A DNA stretch of 64,000 nucleotides, from assembly GCA_030429455.1 (NCBI GenBank), contig JAUIFC010000003.1, positions 1-64,000 on the forward strand. The letters run 5' to 3'. This document shows, one piece after another, positions 13,180 to 38,133 of this stretch (positions are counted from its first letter, which is position 1; the number at the start of each line of letters is the position of its first letter). Below the pieces are notes generated by a model that had not been told where the DNA came from, did no database searches, and worked only from the letters and a program-made list of their open reading frames with translations. Position numbers and translations under genes: made by a program. The stretch comes from Bacteroidia bacterium (GTDB lineage: Bacteria > Bacteroidota > Bacteroidia > Flavobacteriales > Flavobacteriaceae).

Positions 13180-13949
13180 TGCTATTAACAGACACACACG
13201 CACATTTATACAGCGATGTTTTCGAAAACGATAGAGATGCCATGATTCAAAGAGCATTGGAACAAGGTGTTGAACGTTTTTTTATTCCAGCGATAGATTC
13301 CGAAACGACCCAAGCCATGTACGATTTGGAAACAAAATATCCAAATCACATGTTCTTAATGATGGGTTTGCATCCGACTTCTGTTCAAAAAGATAGTTAT
13401 TTAAAAGAACTTGATCTTGTAGAACAAGAAATGAAAAAAAGAACCTTTTACGCTATTGGCGAAATTGGAATTGATTTGTATTGGGACAAAAGTACTTTAG
13501 GCATTCAGCAAGAAGCATTTCACAAGCAGATAGCGTTGGCCAAGGCATATAAACTTCCAATTGTTATTCATTGTAGAGACGCGTTTAACGAAGTTTTTGA
13601 AGTGTTGGAAGCTCATAAAGGTGATGATTTAAAGGGAATTTTTCATTGCTTTACAGGAACTTATGAAGATGCATTAAGAGCATTGTCTTTTAATATGAAG
13701 CTTGGAATAGGTGGTGTTGTGACATTTAAAAATGGTAAAATTGATCAATTTTTAAATAAAATTAGTTTAGAACATATTGTATTAGAAACCGACTCGCCCT
13801 ATTTGTCGCCAAAACCTTACAGAGGAAAGCGAAATGAACCAGCTTATTTAAAATTTGTAGTTCAACGACTTTCTGAAATAAACGTACTTGCTCAAGCTGA
13901 AATCGCAGAAATAACGACGAATAATTCCAAAACTGTTTTTGGAGTATGA
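13179..13949 (+). CDS. TatD-family metal-dependent hydrolase (DNase)
   Basis: 256 residues. The TIM-barrel amidohydrolase-like family contains 3'-5' DNase and D-aminoacyl-tRNA deacylase activities. Metal ligands are visible in DTHAHLYS near the N-terminus, EIGIDLYWD, VIHCRDA, FHCFTGT, and ETDSPYLSP. This is the standard set and suggests an active enzyme. It starts in a 1-nt overlap with the upstream dehydrogenase and ends 3 nt before the asparaginase start, so the three form one operon. Confidence 0.92.
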   Translation: MLLTDTHAHLYSDVFENDRDAMIQRALEQGVERFFIPAIDSETTQAMYDLETKYPNHMFLMMGLHPTSVQKDSYLKELDLVEQEMKKRTFYAIGEIGIDLYWDKSTLGIQQEAFHKQIALAKAYKLPIVIHCRDAFNEVFEVLEAHKGDDLKGIFHCFTGTYEDALRALSFNMKLGIGGVVTFKNGKIDQFLNKISLEHIVLETDSPYLSPKPYRGKRNEPAYLKFVVQRLSEINVLAQAEIAEITTNNSKTVFGV

Positions 13950-20510: not shown

Positions 20511-22166
20511 ATGAAATGGGTTTTTGCATTCTTGCTTTTGTTTTTATATAATACTGTCTTTTCACAACAGTTGTATTTAGAGTTGAAAAGCAATAATGTG
20601 ACTGAAGATTCTTTATTGAATAGTTTTCAGTCAAAGAAATCTTTTAAGGATGTCATGGCAATTGAAAAATATTCATTTGACCTTATTGACAAACTAAAAA
20701 ATGAGGGTTTTTTTAATATAAGACATCAAAAACTTCAGAGACTAAATGATTCGGTTTTTGCATTAAATCTTATGTTGAATAAAAAATACACGCACGTTTA
20801 CATAAGAAATTTAGGTGAATTTAGGAAAAAATATCCATTAAAGGATTCGGTTATAAAGACTAATAACCTTCAAAAAATACTTTACAACATATTAAATAGT
20901 TTATCAGCTGAGGGAAAAGCCTTTAGTCAAATTCAATTAAAAGAGATTGAAATTTCGGATAGCGACACCATTTCAGCCAATGCACATCTAGACATTTCTA
21001 AAAAGCGAATAATTGATGACATCATCATACGAGGATATGATAATATGCCAAAAGGTTTTGTGAAAAATTATGCAGCTATTAGAAAAGGGGATATTTATAA
21101 TAAAGAAAGACTTCTATTGGATGCAGATCGTTTAGCGGAACTGAATTTTTTGGAACAAACAAAAGCACCACAGGTACTTTTCACTCCAGATTCAACCAAA
21201 CTTTATATGTATTATAAAAAGTCTAATGCAAATAGTTTTGATGGTTTTCTTGGATTTAATAACAGTGATGAAAACGATGTTCAGCTTATTGGAAACATAG
21301 ATTTGAAGTTGGTAAACAATTTTAATTATGGGGAAGAGCTAAATCTTAATTATAGAAATGATGGGAACGAACAAGAAAAGTTTGTTTTAGGGATTAGATT
21401 GCCCTATATTTTTAATTCAAAATTTTCTTTAGAAGCACAGTTGAATTTTTTTCGGCAAGACTCTACATTTTCAAACTCCAATCAAAATCTTAAGTTTGAT
21501 TATCAAATAAATCCAAATCTAAACGCAGGTCTTGTAGCAGAATTTGAAGAATCTTCAAATCTGTTATCGACTGAAATAGATAGAGAAGACATTGCCGATT
21601 ATACGAAAGACAAATATGGGTTTAGCCTACTTTTTTTAAACCCTAAACGATTAAATCCATTATTTCTACCTTCCCAATATCTTAATTTCAAATTTGGTTT
21701 TGCCAATAGAAATTCAAGTCAGTTAACTGAAAGGCAAGAGTTTGCAACATTGGAAGGGCGATATATTATAAAAGTGGCCAAAAGGCAGTTTGTTTATTCA
21801 GGGATTCAGGGAGGTTTTTTGTCTTCTGATGAATATTTAACTAACGAATTGTACCGTTTAGGGGGTATAAATTCGATTAGAGGCTTTACCGAAAACAGGT
21901 TTTTTGCAAATATTTACGGTACTATTCAGACTGAATATAGGTATATTCTGGGTTCCAATTTGTTTATTCACAGTGTATTGGATTACGGGTTTTTTGAGAA
22001 TGCGGTAAATAGTTTTGATGAAAATTTATATAGTTTAGGAATAGGCATAGGTTTGCAGACCAAAGCAGGTCTTTTAAGGTTCATAGCCGCCAATGGGGGA
22101 TCCTCTTCTGAGGCCTTAGGATTAAAAAATACTCAAATACATTTAAAATTTGTTACGATATTTTAG
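20511..22166 (+). CDS. Omp85/BamA-TamA-like outer membrane protein
   Basis: 551 residues: signal peptide MKWVFAFLLLFLYNTVFSQ, then a region of about 170 residues with POTRA-like segments (DDIIIRGYDNMPKGFVKNYA is a POTRA-type strand-helix). The rest is a 16-strand-type barrel with the diagnostic GGINSIRGF loop, equivalent to the RGF motif of BamA. It ends in HLKFVTIF with the C-terminal aromatic. It is shorter than BamA (about 800+ residues with five POTRA), so it is more likely TamA-like or a lipid/protein-translocation paralogue. It follows the FadL-like gene by 63 nt. Confidence 0.75.
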   Translation: MKWVFAFLLLFLYNTVFSQQLYLELKSNNVTEDSLLNSFQSKKSFKDVMAIEKYSFDLIDKLKNEGFFNIRHQKLQRLNDSVFALNLMLNKKYTHVYIRNLGEFRKKYPLKDSVIKTNNLQKILYNILNSLSAEGKAFSQIQLKEIEISDSDTISANAHLDISKKRIIDDIIIRGYDNMPKGFVKNYAAIRKGDIYNKERLLLDADRLAELNFLEQTKAPQVLFTPDSTKLYMYYKKSNANSFDGFLGFNNSDENDVQLIGNIDLKLVNNFNYGEELNLNYRNDGNEQEKFVLGIRLPYIFNSKFSLEAQLNFFRQDSTFSNSNQNLKFDYQINPNLNAGLVAEFEESSNLLSTEIDREDIADYTKDKYGFSLLFLNPKRLNPLFLPSQYLNFKFGFANRNSSQLTERQEFATLEGRYIIKVAKRQFVYSGIQGGFLSSDEYLTNELYRLGGINSIRGFTENRFFANIYGTIQTEYRYILGSNLFIHSVLDYGFFENAVNSFDENLYSLGIGIGLQTKAGLLRFIAANGGSSSEALGLKNTQIHLKFVTIF

Positions 22167-22276: not shown

Positions 22277-25200
22277 ATGAAAACAACTACTCAAGGATTA
22301 TTAGCATTCCTCATGATGCTAATTGTGCAATTTTCCTTTGCACAACAAAAATCAGTCACGGGTACAGTGGTTGATGAAACTGGAATTCCTATTCCAAGTG
22401 TAAATGTCTTTATCAAAGGTACAACAGATGGTACGCAAACCGACTTTGATGGTAATTATACAGTGGAAGTAGGAAGTGACCAGACATTAGTCTTTTCTTA
22501 TGTGGGCTTTCTGACTCAAGAAATCCTCGTAGGAAATCAGAGTACAATTAATGTCACTTTGGCTTCGGATGTAGAGCAACTCAACGAGGTACTGGTTACA
22601 GCTCAAGGTATCAAAAGAGAAAAGAAAGCTCTCGGATACGCGGTAAGTTCAATTAAGTCTAAGGACATTGAACAACGTACTGAAGGAGATCTTGGACGTG
22701 TACTTAGAGGTAAAGCGTCTGGTGTAAATATTACACAGCAAAATGGTATTTCTGGTTCAGCTACCAACATCAACATTAGAGGTCAGATTTCTTTCAGTCA
22801 GAACAACCAACCTTTGTTTATTGTGGATGGAGTTCCTTTTAGTTCAGATACAAATCCTTCTGGAGACTTTGTAGATGGCAACTCGGGTTCAAGTCGTTTT
22901 TTAGACCTTGACCCAAACTCTATTGAAAGTGTTAACGTACTGAAAGGTTTTTCTGCCGCAACCATATATGGTGAGGCTGGTAAAAATGGTGTCATACTTA
23001 TTACAACAAAAGCTGGTGCTGCTGGAAACATTGTCAAAAAAACAGAAGTAACAGTAAATTCTTCGGTTTTCTTTAACGAAATCGCTTCGATGCCAGATTA
23101 TCAATACCAATACGGTAATGGTTTTGATCAGGCGTTTGGTTGGTTCTTTAGTAACTGGGGACCAAGTTTTGATGAAGGTGGACCAGCAGGTTGGGGCAAT
23201 CAGGCTGCTATAGACGAGAATGGTACATTGGAGCATCCATATAGTACGGCATCCTCTGCTACAGGAATTCCTCAGGCATTTCCTGAGTTCGCAGGTGCGC
23301 GCTACGACTGGAAACCTTATCGAAGTGTAGAAAACTTCTTTAGAACAGGTACTGTTATAAACACATCTGTAAATGTAAGAGGAAGTTCTGCAGATGGTAA
23401 AGTAGGCTATAATTTTAGTTATGGTCACTTAAAAGACGAAGGCTTTACACCAGGTAATGAAGTGGGCAGAAATAACTTCTCAATGGGAGGTAATGCAGAA
23501 TTAAGTAACAATTTTACAATCAGTGGTACTGCAAATTATAGTAGAACCAATTTTAAAACACCTCCGATTGCGGCAAGTACAGGTAACGGTGCTTTCGGTT
23601 CAGGATCTTCACTTTTTGGAAACCTTTTCTTTACGCCAATTAGTGTGGACATGTTAGGTTTGCCTTATGAGAATCCGCTAACGGGAGCAAGTGTATACTA
23701 CAGACAGAACAACTCTATACAGCATCCACTATGGACTCTTAATAACGCTCAGAACAGACAGTTGACCAATCGATTCTTTGGTAATTTAACTGCCAAATTT
23801 GATTTTAGTGATAACTTGAATCTAGTTTACCGTTTAGGCTATGATTTTTATAACGAAAGAAATACAAATTATCAAAATAAAGGTGGTGTAGATTTACCAG
23901 CAAGAACACTTAGTGGTATATTAGATACTTTTGATAATAATAATATGATCTGGGATCATAACTTTATTCTTTCTGGTCAATATAACCTCACAGATGATAT
24001 CGATGTTTCATTCAATGCTGGAGCAACTTCAAGATCTGTATCTTATGATAGACAAGGGGTTTCAAGCTCAGGGCAATTAGTGTTTGATGTTTTAAGACAT
24101 AACAATTTTGAATTATAGGATGAAATTCAATTTACAACCTACCAAAACATTGTTGGTTTATACGGTCAGGCAGAGTTTGGATACAAGGATTATTTATTTG
24201 TTACTGTTAATGCACGAAACGATTGGGCATCTAACATGCCAGAGAATAATAACTCTCTTTTCTATAAAGGAGCATCTGCTTCATTCTTGCCAACAGCTGC
24301 AATAGAGGGTTTGAGATCAGAAACACTTAATTTCCTAAAAGTTAGAGCTGGTTACGGAGAATCTGCAGGATTTGCACAAGGTTTTCCTACTTCTGTAAAC
24401 ATCGAAGCAAATGCACAAGCTTGGTTAAATAGTGGTGCGTTTGTCGCAATAAATACAACTGACAATTTCCTAGCTAATCCAAACTTAAAACCAGAACTTT
24501 ACTCAGAGGTTGAGTTCGGTATTGAGTCGCGTTTATTTAACAATAGACTGTCTCTTGACATGTCATATTTTGACAGACTCTCGAAAGATTTAATCGTAAC
24601 TCAACCTTTAGACCCAGCTTCTGGTGGTACCCAGAGACAAACCAATATAGGTGAAGTAACATCTTGGGGTATTGAAGCGGATTTAGGTTACGATGTTTTT
24701 AAATCAAACGACAGAACAGGTTTCAATTGGAACATAAATGGAAACTTTACTTTAATAAGAAATGAAGTTACCGATTTAGGAGATAATAGCGGTGGTGCTA
24801 TTATTTATGCCGGTTTCTCTGACCTTGGTAATGCTGCTATCGAAGGTTTTCCTTTGGGAACAATGGTAGGTACTAGAATTGGTAGAGACGATAATGGAAA
24901 TTTCCTTGTAGATGGTAATGGTGATTACGTCATTGAAAATCTTGATGAAACGGGTAATATACCAGTTATAGGTGATCCAAACCCAGATTTTGTACTTAAC
25001 GTAGGAAGCTCCTTAAGTTATAAGAATTTTAATCTTGGTTTCCTTATTAACTATAGACAAGGTGGAGATATCTATTCTTCAACTGTTGCCACTTTATTAG
25101 GAAGAGGTTTAATCGAAGAGACTGTAGATAGAGAAAGTACTTATATTTTACCTGGTATAAGCCAGGCTACAGGATTGCCAAACACCACTCAAATTAATAA

Positions 25201-25513
25201 TTCTACGTATTACTTTAATAACGTATTGTTCGGGCCAAGTGAACTTCAAGTTTATGATGGGACAACTTTAAGATTGCAAGAGGTATCACTTGGGTACACG
25301 CTTCCAAAGAAAATACTTGAAAACACACCTTTTGGTTCAGTATCGGTTAGTGTTCAGGGCTTTAACCTTTGGTTTAAATCATTTAATATTCCAGAAAGTG
25401 CTAATTTTGATACTAATGTCGCTGGTTTAGGTGTGGGCAATGGTGCAGGCTTTGAATTTTTAACTGGTCCAAGTAGTAGAAGATATGGATTTAGCCTAAA
25501 AGCAACATTCTAA
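22277..25513 (+). pseudogene. SusC/RagA-family TonB-linked outer membrane protein interrupted by an in-frame TAG
   Basis: A single reading frame of 1,079 codons encodes a full SusC-type protein: signal peptide (MKTTTQGLLAFLMMLIVQFS..FAQ), carboxypeptidase-regulatory-like domain, TonB plug (IRGQISFSQNNQPLFIVDGV, ATIYGEAGKNGVILITTKAG) and barrel ending GFSLKATF. Codon 614 (24116-24118) is TAG. The frame is unchanged on both sides: the residues after the stop (DEIQFTTYQNIVGLYGQAEF) continue the barrel without gap. CAG to TAG would be a one-base cause. It could be a fresh nonsense mutation, a base-call error or read-through. It is followed at 25527 by its SusD partner. Confidence 0.85.
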
Positions 25514-25526
25514 AAACAATAATGAT

Positions 25527-27203
25527 ATGAAAAATATATTTAAAATACTTTCAGTAGCATGTCTCTTAGTAATTGGGGCTTGTGAAACAACAGAATTGGA
25601 TTTAAGAGAAAATCCTAACAACTTAAGTGCAGGTCAGGAGGATCTTGATCTTGTATTAAACAACATACAATTAGAATTTGTAGATTTTCTTGATGGCACA
25701 GGTGGTCAAGGCGATGGTTTTGGTAGAATAGGTGCCGAGTTGTGTAGAATAGACTATATGAATGGTAGAAATTATACCAATGCTTATGGTCCAGCTGGTT
25801 TTGACGATGAGTGGACAACTGCTTATGCAGACATGCTTACAGACATTAGATTGTTAGTTCCAAGTGCATTAGAGCAAGAATTGTATGTTCACGTTGGTAT
25901 TGCTAAGACGTTAGAAGCATTTACCCTTGTAACTTTGGTGGATTTCTTTGGAGACGTACCTTACTCAGAAGCAGTATTAGAAGAATTTCCAAATCCTCTA
26001 AGAGATTCTGGAGCAGATGTTTATGCCTCTGCGCTTACTTTACTTGACGAGGCAATAGCCAATTTTAATTTGGAGCCTTCAACAAATCCTGATATAGATT
26101 TCTATTACAATAGTGATGTGTCTAAGTGGATAAAAGCGGCAAATACAATTAAGTTGAAGATTTACCTTCAGTCGAGATTGGTAGATTCAAATGCTATGGC
26201 AAGTTTCAATGCTATTATAGATTCGGGTGACTATATTACTTCATCAGCAGACGATTTTCAATTTGCAGCATACGGTACGAATGAGGTTCAGCCAGATGTT
26301 CGCCATCCAAGATATACGGAAAGTTATACTGTAAACGGAGGAATTGACTACATGTCTAATTGGTTAATCAGCACAATGCTTAACGATGATGATCCTAGAA
26401 TACGATACTATTTCTACAGACAGGTAAGTTCAACCCCAAATAACGATGCGCCTAACGAAGAAACCTTACAATGTTCTGTGCAAAGTGTACCAGTTCATTA
26501 TCAAGGTACTCCATTTGCTGATATTTGGTGTTCTCTTCCTAATGGTTATTGGGGCAGAATACACGGTAGTAACGAAGGTATTCCACCAGATGGATTCTTA
26601 AGAACCCTTGCAGGTGTTTATCCAGCAGGTGGTGCCTTTGACGATAGTAGATTTGAGGCACTTGGTCAAGGAGATGGTGCTGCTGGAGCAGGAGCAATTA
26701 CGCCAATTATTCTAGCATCTACAGTAGATTTTTACAGAGCAGAAATGGCAATGGTCAATGGAGATATGGCATCTGCTAGAGCATTTATGTTAGATGGACT
26801 GCAAAAATCTGTTTCAAAAGTAAGTTCTTTTGCAGCAAACGATACATCTGCGGATTTATCATTTGAGCCAACGGCGGGAGAAATTTCAGATCATTCTGCA
26901 GACGTAGCTCTAAGATTTGATAACGCTAGTTCAGATGAAGACAGATGGAATGTATTGGCAGAACAGTTTTTTATAAACTTATATGGGAACGGTATTGATG
27001 GTTATAATTTTTACAGAAGAACGGGATACCCAACAACTGTACCCCCAAACGTTGAGCCTAATCCAGGATCGTTCATAAGATCTTTGTTCTATCCTGCAAA
27101 TCATGTGAATAATAACTTTAATGTAACACAAAAAGAAAGTGTAACGCAACAGGTCTTTTGGGATAACAATCCAGCATCTCCAGGATTCCCAGCACAAAAT
27201 TAA
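25527..27203 (+). CDS. SusD/RagB-family nutrient-binding outer membrane lipoprotein
   Basis: 558 residues: signal peptide with lipobox (VACLLVIGACETTE), placing it on the outer membrane surface. It has helical TPR-like regions typical of the SusD-like_2 group (IAKTLEAFTLVTLVDFFGDVPYSEA, WIKAANTIKLKIYLQSRLV) and a C-terminal GNGIDGYNFYRRTGYP segment. It forms the lid over the SusC barrel. It lies 13 nt after the interrupted susC at 22277. If that barrel is not made, this lipoprotein has lost its partner. The ligand is unknown. Confidence 0.9.
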   Translation: MKNIFKILSVACLLVIGACETTELDLRENPNNLSAGQEDLDLVLNNIQLEFVDFLDGTGGQGDGFGRIGAELCRIDYMNGRNYTNAYGPAGFDDEWTTAYADMLTDIRLLVPSALEQELYVHVGIAKTLEAFTLVTLVDFFGDVPYSEAVLEEFPNPLRDSGADVYASALTLLDEAIANFNLEPSTNPDIDFYYNSDVSKWIKAANTIKLKIYLQSRLVDSNAMASFNAIIDSGDYITSSADDFQFAAYGTNEVQPDVRHPRYTESYTVNGGIDYMSNWLISTMLNDDDPRIRYYFYRQVSSTPNNDAPNEETLQCSVQSVPVHYQGTPFADIWCSLPNGYWGRIHGSNEGIPPDGFLRTLAGVYPAGGAFDDSRFEALGQGDGAAGAGAITPIILASTVDFYRAEMAMVNGDMASARAFMLDGLQKSVSKVSSFAANDTSADLSFEPTAGEISDHSADVALRFDNASSDEDRWNVLAEQFFINLYGNGIDGYNFYRRTGYPTTVPPNVEPNPGSFIRSLFYPANHVNNNFNVTQKESVTQQVFWDNNPASPGFPAQN

Positions 27204-27214
27204 AAATAGTAATT

Positions 27215-28144
27215 ATGAAAAAAATATTTAAATTAACATACTTATTTCTTGTTTTACTTATTGTAAGCTGTACAAGTGATGATAGCGTTATCACCCAGGT
27301 AGATGATAATGTAGAAAGAGGAGCTATTCTGCGAACAATTGAAGTAGCTGCCTTAAACTATGATTTGAGAGAGGGAAGTCCTTCTTGGTCTGTGACCGTT
27401 GAAATGGAAGACAATAATCAAGGTAACCTTTTAGATAGAGTGGAAGTTTTTGTAACTTTCTTCGATAATACGCCAGAAAATGGAGAAAACCCAGTTGATA
27501 AATCTTTGGTAAAAACTATTCAAGCATCTGATTTTCAGAATGGTCCTAATGACTTGCCACGGTCAACTTTTGAAGTATTATTGACTGAAGCTGCTGCGGC
27601 TGCTGGTCTTAATGAAGATCAATACACTGGTGGAGATGTCTTTAGAATAGAATTAGAACTAAACCTGACTGACGGTAGAGTGTTTACTCTAAATGATGTG
27701 AATGGTGGTGTGGCAGGAGGATCTTTTTTCCAGTCTCCTTTTCAATATAGCCTGACCTTAATAGGTTGTCCGCCAAGACCTGGTGTCTATACCATAGAAA
27801 TGACAGACGCATTTGGCGATGGCTGGCAAAGCACAACAGCAGATGATGGTCCTGGTATTCAGATTTTTGTGGATGGACAATTGATTGCTGAAGCAGGAAT
27901 ATGTACAGCCTATAACAATTCCATGGATGCATTCTGTACGGGAAGTGGTAGTTCAGGGAGTACTTCATTTGAGATTCCTGTAGGTGCTCAATCTGCGACT
28001 TGGATTTTTCCAGGCGACTTTTGGGGCGAAATGGGATTTGAAATCTTCTTTGGAGAAGGAGATGACAAATTCTCAATATATAGTGCTGCAGAAGGATCAA
28101 CTTCGGCAGGGGAGTTCTTTGTTGTACTTTGTAATTTCGATTGA
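27215..28144 (+). CDS. Outer membrane-associated lipoprotein of the first SusCD locus
   Basis: 309 residues: lipobox LIVSCTSDDS (Cys at about 19). An N-terminal beta-rich part (ILRTIEVAALNYDLREGSPSW to FTLNDVNGG) is followed by a second domain beginning PPRPGVYTIEMTDAFGDGWQ. The DAFGDGW motif is a calcium-loop-like feature seen in secreted Bacteroidota beta-sandwich domains. It lies 11 nt after the susD gene and ends the operon before a strong terminator, so it is probably a surface ligand-binding (SusE/F-like in position) lipoprotein. No family name is assigned. Confidence 0.7.
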   Translation: MKKIFKLTYLFLVLLIVSCTSDDSVITQVDDNVERGAILRTIEVAALNYDLREGSPSWSVTVEMEDNNQGNLLDRVEVFVTFFDNTPENGENPVDKSLVKTIQASDFQNGPNDLPRSTFEVLLTEAAAAAGLNEDQYTGGDVFRIELELNLTDGRVFTLNDVNGGVAGGSFFQSPFQYSLTLIGCPPRPGVYTIEMTDAFGDGWQSTTADDGPGIQIFVDGQLIAEAGICTAYNNSMDAFCTGSGSSGSTSFEIPVGAQSATWIFPGDFWGEMGFEIFFGEGDDKFSIYSAAEGSTSAGEFFVVLCNFD

Positions 28145-28536: not shown

Positions 28537-31500
28537 ATGCGAGTAAGTTTAACAAAAATTTTGTCACTATTTCTAGTGATGTTTGTGCAGTTCATGTTTG
28601 CACAAGAAAAAACTATCAGTGGTGTTGTTTTAGACGAGACTGGGGAACCATTACTTGGAGCCTCAATTTTGGTTAAGGGTACGCAAGAAGGTACAACCAC
28701 AAACATGGACGGAATCTACAGCATTCAAGCCAATGTTGGCGATGTCCTGGTTTTTAGTTACGTTGGGTATGAGAATTTTGAAGCCGTAATAGGCGCTTCG
28801 ACTACAATCAACGTGAGTATGCAAATCAACAATACTTTAGACGAAGTTATTGTCGTTGCCTACGGTACAACAACAAAAGAGGCCTTTACCGGTTCTGCGA
28901 GTGTGGTTGGGTCCGAAGAACTTGCCATAAGAAACGTAACCTCACCAATTCAGGCCATAGAAGGTAGAGCTACAGGTATCCAGTTTACATCTCCCTCTGG
29001 TCCTGGTGCATCGCCAGGAATAGTCATTAGAGGTGTTGGAACCTTAAATGGTGATACAGATCCTCTATTTGTTGTAGATGGCGTTCCGTTTGAGGGAGCT
29101 TTAAATACCATTAATCAAGAGGATATAGAATCATTTACGGTATTAAAAGATGCTGCTTCAACTTCTTTATATGGAGCTAGAGCTGCCAATGGTGTGGTAA
29201 TTATTACAACCAAAAAAGGTAAAAAAGGCGCAATTAAAACAACAGCTTCTATGCAGTCTGGTTTAGTAACTAATGCGGTCCCATTATACGATCAGGTTTC
29301 CCCTGGTCAATATTACGAGGTAATGTGGGAAGCACTTCGAAATTCGTCTGCTGGTGGTGGCGATCCTGCTTTTGCTTCGGCTAACATTTATAATCAATTA
29401 GGATACAATCCTTTTAATGTTCCAAATGATCAAATCGTTGGAACCGATGGACGTCTTAATCCTAATGCAGAAGTTATTTACAGCAGCTTAGATTGGTTAG
29501 ACTTTTTACAGCAAACTGGTGTAAGACAAAATTATAACGTCAATGTATCTGGTGGTGGTGATAATCACAGTGTTTTCTTTTCCGCTTCTTACTTAGATGA
29601 AGAGAGCTATGTTATAACTTCTGGTTTTGACAGATTTACCGCAAGACTAAATGCAGAATTTGATGTGAATGAACGTTTAAAAATAGGTGGTAGTTCCAAC
29701 GTAGCAATTACCGAGGCTAATGGTCCAAGTTCAGCTGGTACAGGAAGTATTGTGAATCCTTTCAGCTTCGCACAAAATATTGGATCTATATATCCAGTAT
29801 ATGTCAACGATTTACAAGGAAATATAGTAAGAGATCTTGCTGGTAATCCTGTATTTGATAACGGTGAAGGTTTTCCTGAGTTCAACATTGGCTCAAGGCC
29901 TAGAAATCAAGGAAGACACGCTTTACAGGAATTATTATTGAATAACGAATTTGATCAAGACAATACGTTTGGTATCAGATTATTTGGTGAAGTAAAAATT
30001 ATTGAAGGTCTAAAATTAAGAGTTAGTTATGGTCGAGATATCAACGAATTGTTTGAAAGCGAATACGAAAATGAAGTTATTGGTGATGCACAACCAGTTG
30101 GTAGATTAAGCCAAACCAGAGCCAGACGAGATATAGAAAACTTCAACCAAATCCTTTTTTATAATAGGAGTTTTGATAATCATAATTTAGATATTACTTT
30201 AGGTCATGAGAGTTACGAAGAATTTTTCTCAGATCTCGACGGTTTAGCAACTACTCAAGCAGCTAATGGAATTTTTGAATTTGCAAACTTTTCTAACATT
30301 GTAGACTTAGATGGAGCAACCTTTGATAAATCTATTGAGAGTTATTTTTCAAGAATAAACTATAATTACGATAATAGATACTACATAAGCGCCTCTGTTA
30401 GAAGTGATGGTTCTTCAGTTTTTGCAGAAGATAATCGATGGGGTACATTTTATTCGTTTGGTGGTTCATGGCGAGTAGATCAAGAACAATTTATGGAAAA
30501 TGTGACCTGGCTAGATCGTTTAAAGCTTAGAGCATCTTGGGGTGAGGTTGGAAATGATGACCTATTAGATTTCTATTTGTCACAGGCAAGATTTTCTATA
30601 ACATCTAACGCTGCTGACCCAGCTGTAATTTTTACGGATATTGGAAATGCAGCTCTACAATGGGAAACCATAGAAACATTTGATGTTGCCGCAGAGTTTT
30701 CGTTATTCAATAATTTCTTAGACGGTTCTGTCGAATATTATAAAAGAAATTCAACAGACTTATTATATAACTTACCTATTCCAGCAAGTAATGGTTTAAA
30801 TATAGTACCTGTAAATGCTGGTGATATGTTCAACTCAGGCTGGGAAGTCGCTTTAACGGCGCATTTATACAAGAAGAGAGATTTCCAATGGGATGTGACA
30901 CTTCAAGCTTCTACGTTTAAAAACGAAATTACAAGTTTGCCGAACCCATTTATAAATGGTTCTAAGCGTTGGGCAGAAGGCAGATCTAGATTTGATTTCT
31001 TTTTGCTTAGAACAGCTGGTGTAGATCCTGAAACGGGCGATCAATTGTTTTTCAGATACGAATTAGATGAAAATAACGAATCTATTCCTGTATTAGACGA
31101 TAATGGAAACCATCTAACGACTAACGATTGGCAAGACACAGAAAGAGCATATACAGGAGATTCTTCAATCCCAGATTTATTAGGATCCGTATTTAGTACA
31201 ATTAGGTACAAAAACTTTACTTTTGATTTCTTAATTAATTATGGTGTTGGAGGGAAAGTTCTAGACAATGCTTACTCAGGCTTGATGCTAAGTAGTGATT
31301 ATGGTCGAGCTTTACACCCTGATATCTTAAATGCTTGGAGACAACCTGGCGACATTACTGATGTACCTAGACTTGAAAACGGAAATGTAAATTTGGTAAG
31401 AACACAATCTGATAGATTCTTAACAGATGCTTCATTTATTACACTAAGAAACGTAAATTTAAGCTATAGTTTTGATAAAAATATTACTGATGCCATAGGT

Positions 31501-31656
31501 GTTGATAATCTAATGTTATCATTAACTGGAGAAAATCTGTTTTTAGAGAGTAAGAGAAAAGGTTTAAATCCACAATTTAATTTAGCAGGAACACCTTCAA
31601 ATAACAATTTTTCTCCACAGAGAATTATTTCAGTGGGATTAAATGTTTCATTTTAA
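28537..31656 (+). CDS. SusC/RagA-family TonB-linked outer membrane protein
   Basis: 1,039 residues, full length. The signal peptide ends MFVQFMFAQ, then comes the carboxypeptidase-regulatory-like domain (ISGVVLDETGEPLLGASILV), the TonB plug (VIRGVGTLNGDTDPLFVVDG, STSLYGARAANGVVIITTKK) and a 22-strand-type barrel ending RIISVGLNVSF. It imports a ligand captured by its SusD partner, energised by TonB. The SusD gene follows after 12 nt. Unlike the copy at 22277 it has no internal stop. No glycoside hydrolase, peptidase or regulator is nearby to suggest the substrate. Confidence 0.93.
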   Translation: MRVSLTKILSLFLVMFVQFMFAQEKTISGVVLDETGEPLLGASILVKGTQEGTTTNMDGIYSIQANVGDVLVFSYVGYENFEAVIGASTTINVSMQINNTLDEVIVVAYGTTTKEAFTGSASVVGSEELAIRNVTSPIQAIEGRATGIQFTSPSGPGASPGIVIRGVGTLNGDTDPLFVVDGVPFEGALNTINQEDIESFTVLKDAASTSLYGARAANGVVIITTKKGKKGAIKTTASMQSGLVTNAVPLYDQVSPGQYYEVMWEALRNSSAGGGDPAFASANIYNQLGYNPFNVPNDQIVGTDGRLNPNAEVIYSSLDWLDFLQQTGVRQNYNVNVSGGGDNHSVFFSASYLDEESYVITSGFDRFTARLNAEFDVNERLKIGGSSNVAITEANGPSSAGTGSIVNPFSFAQNIGSIYPVYVNDLQGNIVRDLAGNPVFDNGEGFPEFNIGSRPRNQGRHALQELLLNNEFDQDNTFGIRLFGEVKIIEGLKLRVSYGRDINELFESEYENEVIGDAQPVGRLSQTRARRDIENFNQILFYNRSFDNHNLDITLGHESYEEFFSDLDGLATTQAANGIFEFANFSNIVDLDGATFDKSIESYFSRINYNYDNRYYISASVRSDGSSVFAEDNRWGTFYSFGGSWRVDQEQFMENVTWLDRLKLRASWGEVGNDDLLDFYLSQARFSITSNAADPAVIFTDIGNAALQWETIETFDVAAEFSLFNNFLDGSVEYYKRNSTDLLYNLPIPASNGLNIVPVNAGDMFNSGWEVALTAHLYKKRDFQWDVTLQASTFKNEITSLPNPFINGSKRWAEGRSRFDFFLLRTAGVDPETGDQLFFRYELDENNESIPVLDDNGNHLTTNDWQDTERAYTGDSSIPDLLGSVFSTIRYKNFTFDFLINYGVGGKVLDNAYSGLMLSSDYGRALHPDILNAWRQPGDITDVPRLENGNVNLVRTQSDRFLTDASFITLRNVNLSYSFDKNITDAIGVDNLMLSLTGENLFLESKRKGLNPQFNLAGTPSNNNFSPQRIISVGLNVSF

Positions 31657-31668
31657 AAATATATAGAT

Positions 31669-33318
31669 ATGTCACATAAAATTAAAATACTATTATTGGT
31701 ATTGTTATTAATACCAGCATCTTCTTGTCAAGAAGACTTTTTAGAGCGAACACCTACCGATGCTATTGCAGCAGCGGATGCACTAGCCAACGAGAATAAT
31801 ATGCAACTTGTTCTTAATGGTATTCACAGAGGATTATTTTCTCAATCACAAACTATTTTTCCAGGTGGTGACACAGCCAGAGCAGGTAACCACTATTGGG
31901 TGCCGCTTGGCGATAATTTAGCAGGCTACTTAATTCATTCTGCAAACGCAAATAACCTAGGATGGAGAAATGAAATGCAATGGATCTCTCACACAGATCA
32001 AACTTCATTAACTTGTGAGTTGCTTTGGTACCATAGATATAACATTATACTTCATGCTAATTTATTAATTAATGGAATTACAGAAGGCAGTTTTACTGAA
32101 ACGCCTGAACTCAATACTATATTAGGACAAGCATATACGTATAGAGCTTATGCCTACCTATCACTTGTTCAGCATTATGCAAAAGGATATTTGATTGGAA
32201 ACCCAGATACAGATCCTGGTGTTCCATTATTATTTTCATCAGAATCACCATTTACAAGTGAGCCAAGATCTAGCGTACAAGTTATCTATGATCAAATAGG
32301 TAACGATTTAGATGCTGCAATAGCTTCTTTTGAAAATGGCGCACCAAGACCATCTGGAGGTCCAGAAGTTAAATCTCAACTCAATATTAATGTTGCTCAT
32401 GGTTTAAAAGCAAGATGGGCACTTTCAAAAGGAGATTGGCAAACAGCTGCAAGCGAAGCAGTATTAGCTAGAGATGGTTTTCCTCTAATGGGTGAAAGCG
32501 ATTGGAAATCTGGTCTTAACACTAATGATCTTTCTGAGGTTATTTGGGGAAGCAACGTTATAGAAGCAGAAACGACATTCTTTAGATCCTATTTTTATTT
32601 AGCAAGTAATACTTTTAATGGTAGCCAAATTAGAAATAATCCAAAGATTGCCGATAGAAGACTAGTAGATGCCATTCCTGATACAGATTATAGAAAAGAT
32701 GTTTTTTTACCTGATGCTCCAAATTCCAATACTTCTGCAGCAAATGGTGAAGGCGGATGGGCTAATAATACAAATCCCCTTTACACAACAGAAGAGGAGT
32801 TTGATCAAGCAATTGCAGATATAAAAGCAACTTACGGTTTAGTATCTGGACATAACACTCACCCATATATGCACTTTAAACTTGCTCAGAAAAATCCAGG
32901 TACTATAGATCCAGATGATGTTATTTATATGCGTTCTGCTGAAATGTATTTGATAGAAGCTGAAGCTCATGCTATGCAGAATAATATATCCGATGCTCAA
33001 GCCGCTCTTCAAACCATCGCTGGGGCTAGAGACACAGCCTTCGATGCGTCTAATTATGGTTCTCAAGAAGCACTTATGGACGAAATTAAATTCCAAAGAA
33101 GATTGGAATTGTGGGGCGAAGGTTTCGGTTATACTGACAAAATTAGATGGGATGAAGGTATAGATCACAGTGCAAATGGTGGTTCAGGTGCCTCTGAAGT
33201 TTTATATCAAGAAGCATATGTTGTAGAAAGACCATCAGTTAACCCTGACTGGATTTTTAAAATTCCACAAGCTGAAATAGATGCAAATCCAAATATTACA
33301 CCAAGTGATCAAAACTAG
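31669..33318 (+). CDS. RagB/SusD-family outer membrane lipoprotein
   Basis: 549 residues: lipobox LLLIPASSCQEDFLE, the typical SusD opening after the Cys (DFLERTPTDAIAAADAL). The TPR-like core includes TYRAYAYLSLVQHYAKGY. The C-terminal RagB/SusD domain has YMRSAEMYLIEAEAHAMQ, FQRRLELWGEGFGYTDKIRW and a final IFKIPQAEIDANPNI. It acts as the ligand-binding lid for the SusC at 28537. It ends the operon, with a terminator at 33350-33387. Confidence 0.93.
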   Translation: MSHKIKILLLVLLLIPASSCQEDFLERTPTDAIAAADALANENNMQLVLNGIHRGLFSQSQTIFPGGDTARAGNHYWVPLGDNLAGYLIHSANANNLGWRNEMQWISHTDQTSLTCELLWYHRYNIILHANLLINGITEGSFTETPELNTILGQAYTYRAYAYLSLVQHYAKGYLIGNPDTDPGVPLLFSSESPFTSEPRSSVQVIYDQIGNDLDAAIASFENGAPRPSGGPEVKSQLNINVAHGLKARWALSKGDWQTAASEAVLARDGFPLMGESDWKSGLNTNDLSEVIWGSNVIEAETTFFRSYFYLASNTFNGSQIRNNPKIADRRLVDAIPDTDYRKDVFLPDAPNSNTSAANGEGGWANNTNPLYTTEEEFDQAIADIKATYGLVSGHNTHPYMHFKLAQKNPGTIDPDDVIYMRSAEMYLIEAEAHAMQNNISDAQAALQTIAGARDTAFDASNYGSQEALMDEIKFQRRLELWGEGFGYTDKIRWDEGIDHSANGGSGASEVLYQEAYVVERPSVNPDWIFKIPQAEIDANPNITPSDQN

Positions 33319-33349
33319 TTTGTAGTCTTATTCTTTTGAATATATTCTT

Positions 33350-33387
33350 AAAGCCTTTGCAAAATTAACCTTGCAAAGGCTTTTGTT
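33350..33387 (+). terminator. Terminator of the second SusCD operon
   Basis: AAAGCCTTTGCAA (33350-33362) and TTGCAAAGGCTTT (33371-33383) form a perfect 13-bp stem, followed by TTGTTTT. Confidence 0.85.
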
Positions 33388-33540
33388 TTAACATTATGAA
33401 ATTGTTATATCTATTGGTATCATAGCGTTTTCGAGCATTGCTCTATTGTGTAGGAGTATTTCAAGCTTCTAAAACCTTTTAGTTAAGTTTTAACAGCCAA
33501 ATATTAAATTAAAGTAAAAAAAGTTTGTCGGAATGAGTAT

Positions 33541-33582
33541 TTATTGTCATTTTTGGCGTTGGCTAATTCAAATAAATTAAAA
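33541..33582 (+). promoter_or_regulatory. Conserved leader before the third susC
   Basis: TTATTGTCATTTTTGGC, then GGCTAATTCAAATAAATT, closely matches the leader before 28537. A shorter version, TTAATTCAAATAACTAAAT, precedes 22277. This suggests a shared promoter and 5' UTR for the three loci. Confidence 0.5.
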
Positions 33583-36500
33583 ATGAGAACAAAGTTTAGA
33601 GTAACTCTAACGCTACTATTAGCGTTTGTTGTGCAGATTTCGTTCGCGCAACAAAAGACTGTCAGCGGTAATGTCGTTGATGGAGATGGTCTGCCAGTTC
33701 CCGGGGTAGATGTTCAAATTAAGGGAACCCAAAAAGGTACACAAACAGACTTTGATGGTAATTATTCCATCAGTGTATCTTCTGATCAAACATTAGTATT
33801 TTCTTATGTTGGTCTAAAAACACAAGAAATCCTTGTAGGAAATCGATCTGTAATCGATGTGACAATGCAAACTGACCTTGAAGAGTTAGAAGCTGTAGTT
33901 GTTACCTCTTACCAGGGTATTCTTAAAGAGTCTGAAGTAGTGTCATCTTCTTCGACTGTAAAATCTGAAGCTATAGAGCAAGTGCCAATCGCATCTATAG
34001 ATCAAGTATTACAGGGGAATGTTGCTGGTGCTAACATTAGAACGGCGTCTGGGCAACCAGGTCAATCGGCTACAATTTTAATTAGAGGACGTACTTCATT
34101 AAATGGAGATTCGGAACCTTTATTTATTGTGGATGGTATGCCAGTTAATCAAGATAACTTTAGAAACATCAACTCTAATGATATCGAAACAATGCGTGTT
34201 CTTAAGGATGCTGCAGCGACTGCTATTTATGGAAATAGAGGTGCTGCTGGTGTAATTTTAATTACTACTAAAAAAGCAAAAAAGAACGAAAATTTAAAAG
34301 TTCAGTACAGAGGGCTTTACGGTGTTGCAACTTTACCAGAACAAAACTTCACGGTAATGAACACGCGTCAATTATTAAATTTCCAGAAAAATGTACTGCC
34401 GGGTAATCAGTTTGGTGATGGTTTATCCGATGCGGAAATCAACGCTTTAGCGAATTCGGTATCTACAAACTGGGCAGATTTAATTCAACAGCAGGGAACT
34501 ACACAGTCCCATGAACTTGTAATTACTTCTGGAAGTGAAAACTTATCATCGTTTACTTCAATGCAATACTTTCAACAAGAAGGTACAACTTTAGGTTCAC
34601 AATTAGAAAGATTTTCTGTAAGAAATAACCTTAGCGGTAATTACAAGAAATTCAACTATAGTTCAAACTTAAGTATTGCTTATTCTAAAAGTGATTTTGT
34701 TGTAGATGCGCAAAGAGGTGGAAATACTGGAGGTCAGTTAGACAATCCATTTATCGTTCCATTCCTTGCATTTCCATATTTGAATCCTTACAATCCAGAC
34801 GGATCCTTAAATGTAGTTGGTACTGAAGCTTCTGGTGCTTTAAATGCCGATGGATCTATCAATGTTGATGGTGCAAACGGCTTTTTAAATACGCCATTTA
34901 TAGCGCTTAACACTCAGCGATTTAATCAAGATAGAGAAAATGAATTTAGATTAATTGGTAGCTTACAAGCCGATTATAACATTGTCAAAAATGTGACTAT
35001 TGGAGCCTCTGTAGGAACCGACTACATTCATAGTCAAGATTATTTCAGAAACGATCCTTTAAGTATTAGAGGTTTGTTTACAAGAGACAATTTGGTGCCA
35101 GAAGATCAACGTGATGATTTCTTTGGAGGTACACAAGCAGAAAGTTCTTTCAGAGATTTCTCTTTTAACACCAATGCTTTTGTAAGATATACGAATACCT
35201 TCGCAGACAAGCACACAGTTAATGCTGCGGCATTCACAGAATACTTCTATCGAAATATTCAGAATATGGGCTTCAGCCAGAGCGGACTTAATCCTAAATT
35301 CCCTGGTTCTTCAGCAGGTTTTGTTGACGGAGCGACTCTTATAGACGATGTTCCAGTATTTGTTCCAGGTGTATTTTCATCTGAATCGGAATTTGCATTA
35401 TTCTCCTATTTTGGAAACGTAACTTATGACTATGACGGTAGATTCGGTCTTGACGTAACAGTTAGACGTGACGGTACTTCTCGTTTCCAAGAAAGAAATA
35501 GATTTGGTACATTCTATTCTGTTGGTGGTCGTTGGAATATTGACCAAGAAAACTTTATGGATGATGTGGACTGGGTGTCTAGTTTAAAACTTAGAGCCAG
35601 TCATGGTGTGACAGGTAACCAAGGTGTTGGAGGATTCTACCAAGCATTTCAAGCAGTTGCTGGTGGAAATGGATACCAGAACTCAGCGCAGTTATCTCCA
35701 GCAGGATTTGTTGATGAAGATGTTATTTGGGAAACGACTACACAAACCAACTTTGGTGTAGATTATGGTTTCTGGAATAACAGGTTGACTGGTGCTTTAG
35801 ATGTTTATTACAAAAGAACGGATGACTTATTCTTTGGTAAGAATATTTCTCCAGCAGGTACAGGTTTTTCAAGTGTAACTACCAACGTTGCTGTAATGGA
35901 TAACACTGGTGTTGAATTACAATTGTCTTATGACCTTTTAAGAAAATCACCAACGAACGATTGGAATATTAATGTGTTCTTTAATGGTGCTTACAATGAA
36001 AACAATGTTGTAGATGTTGCCAATACTCAAGGTTTCGTAGAAGCCGCTGGTCCTGGTTTAAGAATTGCGGAGGACGAGAGAGCATTTACTTATTTCCTTC
36101 AAAGATGGGCTGGTGTTGACCCTTCAAACGGACAACCATTGTATTATGATGCCGAAGGTAATATCACTAACGTCCTTAACAGAGCAGAGGAAGGTGTTTA
36201 TTTAGATAAGCAGTTTGATCCTGTATTTACTGGTGGATTCGGAACAAACATTTCATGGAAAGGTTTCACGTTATCAGCGTTATTCTCTTGGCAAGCAGAA
36301 GCCTATCGTGTAAACGGTTCTTTAGCATTGCTTGAAGACTTCGACTTAGTAAATATTACTAACTTGAGTACGTCAATGTTTGATTTATGGCAACAACCTG
36401 GAGATTTAGCAACAATACCAGCTGCTAATCAGGCGTCTGGTCTGCGTATTACTTCTTCAAACCAAACTGATAGATATCTAGAAGATGCATCTTTCTTAAG

Positions 36501-36711
36501 GTTAAGAAATGCGAATATCGCTTATAACGTAAGTAAAGACACATTAGACAAAATAGGTATGTTCTCTGCTATTAGAGTATATGTTCAGGGAACTAACTTA
36601 GTAACTTGGAGTGAATGGAGAGGATACGATCCTGAAGCTAACGATAGCTTAGAGTTCTTTAACTTCCCGACCCCTACTACAGTTTCTTTTGGATTAGATT
36701 TAACTTTTTAA
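33583..36711 (+). CDS. SusC/RagA-family TonB-linked outer membrane protein
   Basis: 1,042 residues from the ATG at 33583. This start is preferred over an upstream TTG (33544), which would fall in the conserved leader. The signal peptide is MRTKFRVTLTLLLAFVVQIS..FAQ, followed by the carboxypeptidase-regulatory-like domain, which is very similar to that of the copy at 22277 (GTQTDFDGNY, SDQTLVFSYVG, TQEILVGN). Plug blocks are ILIRGRTSLNGDSEPLFIVDG and AIYGNRGAAGVILITTKK, and the barrel ends PTTVSFGLDLTF. It is paired with the susD at 36724 (12 nt gap). Substrate unknown. Confidence 0.93.
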   Translation: MRTKFRVTLTLLLAFVVQISFAQQKTVSGNVVDGDGLPVPGVDVQIKGTQKGTQTDFDGNYSISVSSDQTLVFSYVGLKTQEILVGNRSVIDVTMQTDLEELEAVVVTSYQGILKESEVVSSSSTVKSEAIEQVPIASIDQVLQGNVAGANIRTASGQPGQSATILIRGRTSLNGDSEPLFIVDGMPVNQDNFRNINSNDIETMRVLKDAAATAIYGNRGAAGVILITTKKAKKNENLKVQYRGLYGVATLPEQNFTVMNTRQLLNFQKNVLPGNQFGDGLSDAEINALANSVSTNWADLIQQQGTTQSHELVITSGSENLSSFTSMQYFQQEGTTLGSQLERFSVRNNLSGNYKKFNYSSNLSIAYSKSDFVVDAQRGGNTGGQLDNPFIVPFLAFPYLNPYNPDGSLNVVGTEASGALNADGSINVDGANGFLNTPFIALNTQRFNQDRENEFRLIGSLQADYNIVKNVTIGASVGTDYIHSQDYFRNDPLSIRGLFTRDNLVPEDQRDDFFGGTQAESSFRDFSFNTNAFVRYTNTFADKHTVNAAAFTEYFYRNIQNMGFSQSGLNPKFPGSSAGFVDGATLIDDVPVFVPGVFSSESEFALFSYFGNVTYDYDGRFGLDVTVRRDGTSRFQERNRFGTFYSVGGRWNIDQENFMDDVDWVSSLKLRASHGVTGNQGVGGFYQAFQAVAGGNGYQNSAQLSPAGFVDEDVIWETTTQTNFGVDYGFWNNRLTGALDVYYKRTDDLFFGKNISPAGTGFSSVTTNVAVMDNTGVELQLSYDLLRKSPTNDWNINVFFNGAYNENNVVDVANTQGFVEAAGPGLRIAEDERAFTYFLQRWAGVDPSNGQPLYYDAEGNITNVLNRAEEGVYLDKQFDPVFTGGFGTNISWKGFTLSALFSWQAEAYRVNGSLALLEDFDLVNITNLSTSMFDLWQQPGDLATIPAANQASGLRITSSNQTDRYLEDASFLRLRNANIAYNVSKDTLDKIGMFSAIRVYVQGTNLVTWSEWRGYDPEANDSLEFFNFPTPTTVSFGLDLTF

Positions 36712-36723
36712 TTTATACACAAA

Positions 36724-38133
36724 ATGAAAAAAAATTTTTTAATAATAACTTTAGCAACATTACTAACGAGTTGTGAGGATCAATTAAATAGAGTTCCTAT
36801 TGATTCCTTGATTGATGCAACTGCTTATCAGAATGTTGATGATGTATCTGCTGGTGTTGTTGGTGTCTATACAGGTATAGACTATACTAATCAGGCAGAC
36901 TTAAATGCGATGTTTACTGACAATGTTCAGTTAGGAGATGATAGTGGAGGTCAAAAAGTAGCTTCACTAAATTTACAATTAGACCCACAAATTAATAGCT
37001 TTGCTATTTGGTCAAGCCAGTATAACACAGCTAACGATGTTAACAGAGTGCTTGATGCAGCTTCGAATCTTACAGTTAGTGCTGCGGATCAGCCAAGATT
37101 AGATAATTTGTTGGCTCAATTGTATTTAATAAGAGCATTCGCTCATATGGAAGTGATGTTATATTACGGAGAGGATTTTGAAGATTCTAGTGCGTTAGGA
37201 GTTCCTTACCAAGATTTTTTAAGCACAACAGCTGAACCACCAAGGTTAACAACTGGAGAGGTGATTGAGAAGATTGCTTTAGATATCACAACTGCAGAAT
37301 CCTTATTCAATGGTGGATTTGATGATATTTTTAGAGCAAATCCAGATTACGCTAAATTCTTAAGAACGAGATTGGCTTTGTATAGTGGAGATTGGGCTGG
37401 TGTAATATCAAGTTCAAATGCTCTTATCGCAGATTATCCATTGGCAGATCAGGCTCAATACAGAGACATGTTTGCGGGAGATTTGGACCAAACAGAAGTA
37501 ATATTTAGTTACGATAACAGAGCTGGTGCAAACTTTAATAATATCAGCGGTGAATTCCGTTTTGGTGGTGGAGGTAACTTTATTTCTATGTCCAATGAAT
37601 TGCATGGCATCTTAGAAAACGAGTTTAATGTAAATAACGATGTCAGATTTGAAGTAAATGTAGATCCAAATAATGATCCGGATATTTTCAATCAAAAGGG
37701 CATCAACAAATTTCCTCTAGGTGCTAGTGGATTTATAAACGATTTCAAAACTGCTAGAATTTCTGAAGTATACTTAATGAGAGCTGAAGCATTTGCAAGA
37801 CAATCTCAGTTTGCAGAGGCAGCGGAGGCGCTTCAAGCAGTTAGAAATGCAAGAAGAGGCACATCAGACGCTTCTACACCTTATGCTAGTCTTTTTGATG
37901 CAATTACAGACATTAGATTCGAAAGACGTTTAGAGTTATGTTACGAAGGTCATAGATACATCGATTTAAAAAGATTTAGAAACATACTTAACGAAGGTAT
38001 GTCTAGAGATCCTTCTGATTGTGCTGGTAGTGTTCCATGTAACCTTTCTGTAAACGATAGAAGATGGACATTCCCAATTCCTCTGCAAGAGTTAAATGGT
38101 AATTCTAATATGGTACAAAATCAGGATTGGTAA
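36724..38133 (+). CDS. RagB/SusD-family outer membrane lipoprotein
   Basis: 469 residues: lipobox LATLLTSCEDQLNRVP with the SusD start (IDSLIDATAYQNVDDVSAGV). The TPR-like core contains AQLYLIRAFAHMEVMLYYGED, and the C-terminal domain has ISEVYLMRAEAFARQSQ and FERRLELCYEGHRYIDLKRF. It is shorter than the two other SusD proteins here. Partner of the SusC at 33583, and followed by two lipoprotein genes in the same direction. Confidence 0.93.
   Translation: MKKNFLIITLATLLTSCEDQLNRVPIDSLIDATAYQNVDDVSAGVVGVYTGIDYTNQADLNAMFTDNVQLGDDSGGQKVASLNLQLDPQINSFAIWSSQYNTANDVNRVLDAASNLTVSAADQPRLDNLLAQLYLIRAFAHMEVMLYYGEDFEDSSALGVPYQDFLSTTAEPPRLTTGEVIEKIALDITTAESLFNGGFDDIFRANPDYAKFLRTRLALYSGDWAGVISSSNALIADYPLADQAQYRDMFAGDLDQTEVIFSYDNRAGANFNNISGEFRFGGGGNFISMSNELHGILENEFNVNNDVRFEVNVDPNNDPDIFNQKGINKFPLGASGFINDFKTARISEVYLMRAEAFARQSQFAEAAEALQAVRNARRGTSDASTPYASLFDAITDIRFERRLELCYEGHRYIDLKRFRNILNEGMSRDPSDCAGSVPCNLSVNDRRWTFPIPLQELNGNSNMVQNQDW

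Follow-up and report, generated by a model that had tools for sequence, protein, structure and literature searches.

Whether an in-frame stop codon inside an otherwise open transporter gene marks a lost function, an error of the draft or a codon that the cell still translates is the question raised by a susC/ragA gene of a Psychroflexus-like bacterium, located in the window (the whole stretch of 64,000 nucleotides that was analysed). Bases 24116-24118 of the forward strand read TAG and form codon 614 of the frame that starts at ATG 22277. With the TAG written as X, this frame (22277-25513) comprises 1,078 codons and ends with TAA at 25511-25513; under translation table 11 the ORF from ATG 22277 gives 613 residues. 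The frame is open on both sides of the TAG, no second lesion was found in the 1,078 codons, and the gene contains no N bases. A first-pass annotation had reported the in-frame TAG, and both its position and the residues given before and after it were confirmed.

The 5′ part of the gene (22277-24118, forward strand; 613 codons plus TAG) starts with a signal peptide, recognised by eye, followed by a carboxypeptidase-regulatory-like domain (PF13715, residues 27-107), the plug (PF07715, residues 117-239) and the first part of the barrel. The remainder of the frame (24119-25513, forward strand) adds 464 open barrel codons plus TAA. When the TAG was read through, the protein matched TIGR04056 with 555.7 bits (cut-off 368.25) over profile positions 2-981 of 981, while the truncated product alone scored 339.9 bits, under the cut-off. 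The score against the short SusC signature model TIGR04057 was 43.9, just below its cut-off of 46.2. Pfam domains of the read-through protein were PF13715 (CarbopepD_reg-like, N-terminal), PF07715 (plug) and PF00593 (TonB-dependent barrel), and the best solved match by sequence was BT_2264 (PDB 5fq6, E 3.6e-93). Judged by these matches, the interrupted gene is a member of the SusC/RagA family of TonB-linked outer membrane proteins (TIGR04056). The parts before and after the stop cover profile positions 2-505 and 534-981, respectively, as neighbouring pieces of one protein, which bears out the earlier view that both halves belong to one barrel frame. A frameshift or insertion was rejected, as a single frame runs throughout and the profile match is continuous on read-through.

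Directly 3′ of susC lies a gene for its SusD-like lipoprotein partner (25527-27203, forward strand; SusD-like_2, PF12771), followed in the same operon by a putative lipoprotein gene (27215-28144, forward strand) in which a lipobox was recognised by eye and which matched nothing in Pfam or NCBIfam at E 0.001. Both had been described as intact and were found to be so, with 69% and 67% identity, respectively, to the corresponding genes beside the susC of the nearest relative (G035, see below). Behind this operon, window positions 28537-38133 hold two more SusC/SusD pairs on the forward strand. The second SusC/RagA gene (28537-31656; TIGR04056, 737.8 bits) and the third (33544-36711; 719.4 bits) are intact and show no internal stop; the SusD gene of the second pair (31669-33318) matched PF07980 and PF14322, and that of the third (36724-38133) matched PF07980. 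No glycoside hydrolase match was obtained among the neighbouring genes scanned by Pfam (part of the scan at E 1e-10). The gene preceding susC (20511-22166) bears no likeness to the one gene compared, which precedes the susC of G035.

Relatives of the gene were sought in 100 genomes (its own plus 99 relatives), with up to seven candidates scored per genome. The nearest among the matches listed was the copy of G035, a genome of another genus, which is 75% identical and has no stop; seven same-genus copies were 56-57% identical, and no sibling copy above 75% identity was among the matches listed. A contig scan of further genomes, from which very near records were possibly omitted, yielded at least 79 susC loci, the nearest being 65% identical among the matches listed. 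A plasmid megablast with the interrupted susC gave no match. For the alignment, 79 contig-scan loci were combined with 18 of the 30 loci of the 100-genome search (L006-L023, including the window gene), giving 97 copies, and loci of 31-34% identity (L024-L035) were excluded; removal of four exact duplicates left the window gene and 92 distinct relatives. Within the matched stretch all 92 are free of internal stops (L065 is truncated by a contig end), and the stop in the window gene is thus more than a chance feature.

At the site of codon 614, glutamine was found in 48 of the 55 relatives that are at least 50% identical (32 CAA, 16 CAG) and in 58 of all 92; the other seven of the 55 carry S, S, N, F, V, T and A. 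The origin from CAG by a single C-to-T change, as suggested earlier, is compatible with glutamine being the usual residue, but the nearest relative has CAA at this site.

The four same-genus genomes with the best FtsA matches (G026, G010, G011 and G014; 84-85% identity over nearly the whole length) gave only weak best matches to the interrupted SusC (E 2e-52 to 3e-92), and G035, nearest by SusC, has an FtsA that is 77% identical to that of the window. Thus, for window positions 22277-28144, the nearest susC relative is in another genus and the best FtsA genomes have no close copy. The operon looks patchily distributed, and transfer or differential loss could be the cause of this difference between SusC and FtsA.

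In our judgement the TAG is probably genuine and young, and the locus is likely to be an ordinary nonsense allele of one SusC gene. A recent nonsense mutation would then disable one SusC/RagA TonB-dependent transporter, with ribosomes terminating at codon 614 via release factor 1. The 613-residue product would keep the signal peptide, the plug and an estimated first 40-45% of the barrel. Given what is generally known of barrel assembly, this product would be expected to fail to insert into the outer membrane and to be degraded, because the C-terminal end of the barrel is missing; it is presumably non-functional. The SusD-like lipoprotein encoded behind susC would lose its transporter, and the uptake of one nutrient would be lost. 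Such a loss may be tolerable, since ten further SusC genes that exceed the family cut-off remain in the genome.

How long ago the gene was interrupted was addressed by comparing the parts before and after the stop. Against G035, a proportion of 0.158 of the non-synonymous and 0.762 of the synonymous sites had changed before the stop, compared to 0.177 and 0.776 behind it; synonymous sites are saturated at this distance, and these proportions describe the long past only. In a relative-rate test between the window lineage and the G035 lineage, restricted to sites at which at least five of seven outgroup sequences agree, lineage-specific changes numbered 27 vs 27 before the stop and 31 vs 19 behind it. 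The latter ratio was not significant (binomial p = 0.12), nor was the contrast between both parts (Fisher p = 0.24). Because no significant relaxation was found behind the stop, the lesion, if real, is probably young. On the other side, the window gene departs from the consensus at 7 of 232 near-invariant sites (four before and three behind the stop), compared to 0-3 in the nine relatives checked. The seven replacements are mostly mild; they could reflect a somewhat older relaxation, and lean mildly against a young lesion. The first-pass annotation had considered the mutation recent on account of the intact partner genes. The absence of a second lesion and the relative-rate test are compatible with that age, but the intact neighbours say little about it.

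It is possible, though rather unlikely, that the TAG is a draft error, either a base-calling or consensus error or the allele of a minor strain, and that the main gene of the organism is intact. The genome (4.13 Mb) is a draft of 310 contigs, 86.48% complete with 1.86% contamination, which leaves room for such errors. Another draft of the genus, G018 (listed as 79% complete), contains an in-frame TAG in ftsA (G018:C325:14081-15265, L154), where the FtsA of the window has Glu and that of G001 has Asp. As ftsA is generally considered essential, this stop is probably a draft error, and such errors may therefore occur in draft genomes like these.

Against a draft error at codon 614 stands the rarity of internal stops elsewhere in the genome. 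Among 33 SusC-profile matches (11 over the cut-off) and 24 TonB-receptor barrel matches, the interrupted susC was the only one with an internal stop, and none of 39 ABC-transporter matches had one. A base-rate scan was carried out on 472,204 bases, comprising the window, the part of locus L149 beyond the window and 20 further stretches of the genome. It reported stops with a strong coding signal directly on either side, as scored by a hexamer model for which the scanned sequence itself was the training set, and its sensitivity was gauged only by its recovery of the interrupted susC. Inspection by eye assigned 20 of its 22 candidates to junctions between adjacent genes that share a frame: in 17 of these a Met follows the stop by no more than 20 codons, two (window positions 13947 and 20445) precede separately listed ORFs, and one (L165, stop at 5933) was placed here by eye. 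This sorting left just two in-frame stops between coding halves, the interrupted susC and a transposase frame. The latter (L170:5000-6628, contig C30, minus strand) has 541 sense codons and a single internal TAA; the half behind the TAA matched a transposase DDE domain (E 3.1e-7) and the first half gave no Pfam match. Errors of this kind thus do not seem to be frequent in the draft.

Read-through of the TAG, by a suppressor tRNA or by leaky termination, with full-length SusC being made at a perhaps low and regulated level, is improbable. The absence of significant relaxation behind the stop fits read-through, although a very young mutation would be expected to give the same outcome in the selection test, and the site of codon 614 tolerates several residues (seven of 55 relatives do not have Gln). 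In opposition to this, no relative among the 92 has a stop at the site, and TAG serves as an ordinary terminator in this genome. Among 47 of the 60 ORFs of the window that were picked as plausible genes, 28 end in TAA, 11 in TGA and eight in TAG; the count omits the two susC pieces as well as overlapping ORFs in a different frame or on the other strand. The ORF just upstream of susC itself ends in TAG. Release factor 1 is encoded in the genome (497.8 bits, cut-off 423.25), and no TAG-reading anticodon was present in the 38 tRNA hits obtained with 150 of 373 candidates scored in a genome that is 86.48% complete, so that a tRNA may have been missed. Thirty-six of these anticodons were assigned by ARAGORN and two by eye (C119:765-877, CAT; C31:269-365, GAT). 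On these three counts, terminator use, RF1 and tRNAs, stop-codon recoding is unsupported, and nothing suggests a changed genetic code here.

Two of the tRNA loci were noted as side observations. The match at C119:765-877 (L147:66-178) has about 40 extra bases between the D-arm and the anticodon arm; it was found whole in none of the 26 other same-genus genomes searched, six of which match 33 bases only. The region C31:1-1600 (L146) contains seven tRNA genes (His, Gln, Asp, Arg, Cys, Asn and Lys) and an eighth tRNA-like match, all on one strand and confined to 1.3 kb of a contig of 5.2 kb, and might represent a phage tRNA array.

We give still less credence to the idea that the TAG has been kept as useful, with leaky or conditionally suppressed termination at codon 614 providing small, controlled amounts of full-length SusC. 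Least probable of all is a two-chain barrel assembled from separately made halves, a possibility raised without proof by the authors for Anabaena All2620/All2619 (PMC2771747), where all2620 is transcribed. In the window gene, the first start codon in frame behind the TAG is ATG 24236, 39 codons downstream and with no earlier GTG or TTG; translation from it would begin within the barrel, and no signal peptide was seen there by eye. ATG 24120, directly behind the TAG, lies in a different frame that is open for 61 codons only. The 3′ half is therefore unlikely to be translated on its own. A split copy was found in none of the 92 relatives.

Under the preferred reading of a nonsense allele, and if the base is real, the locus would be another example of a genome that has several SusC/SusD pairs losing one receptor. 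Annotation should treat it as one interrupted susC, either a pseudogene or the result of a sequence error, instead of two genes.

Compared to SusC/RagA proteins as represented by TIGR04056 and BT_2264, the window copy shares the domain order, the full profile coverage on read-through and the SusD gene directly behind it, and differs in its in-frame TAG at codon 614. No paper reporting a susC gene with a stop codon was among the matches listed from the open-licence PubMed Central literature. For Flavobacterium psychrophilum, one isolate has been reported to carry TonB-dependent receptor pseudogenes (PMC9331221); that study compared several isolates, against one genome here, and does not state the kind of lesion in its accessible part. 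The closest parallels come from Anabaena sp. PCC 7120, in whose annotation two TonB-dependent transporter genes were each split by a stop codon within the barrel part (PMC2771747). As in the window gene, a plug and an incomplete barrel precede the stop and the missing part of the barrel follows it. The Anabaena genes differ in encoding cyanobacterial transporters of other types, not SusC, and their stops were resequenced, whereas the TAG of the window is known from draft sequence. Resequencing upheld the stop between all2620 and all2619 and revealed no frameshift within 500 bp, and the authors took the transcription of all2620 as a sign against a pseudogene; by analogy, this would count against reading the window gene as a nonsense pseudogene. 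The stop between alr4028 and alr4029 proved non-existent on resequencing and was a sequence error, which favours the draft-error explanation of the window TAG. Since one of these stops was confirmed and the other was not, the interrupted susC has, as far as the accessible text of that study goes, close precedents both ways, for a genuine stop and for an error in the sequence.
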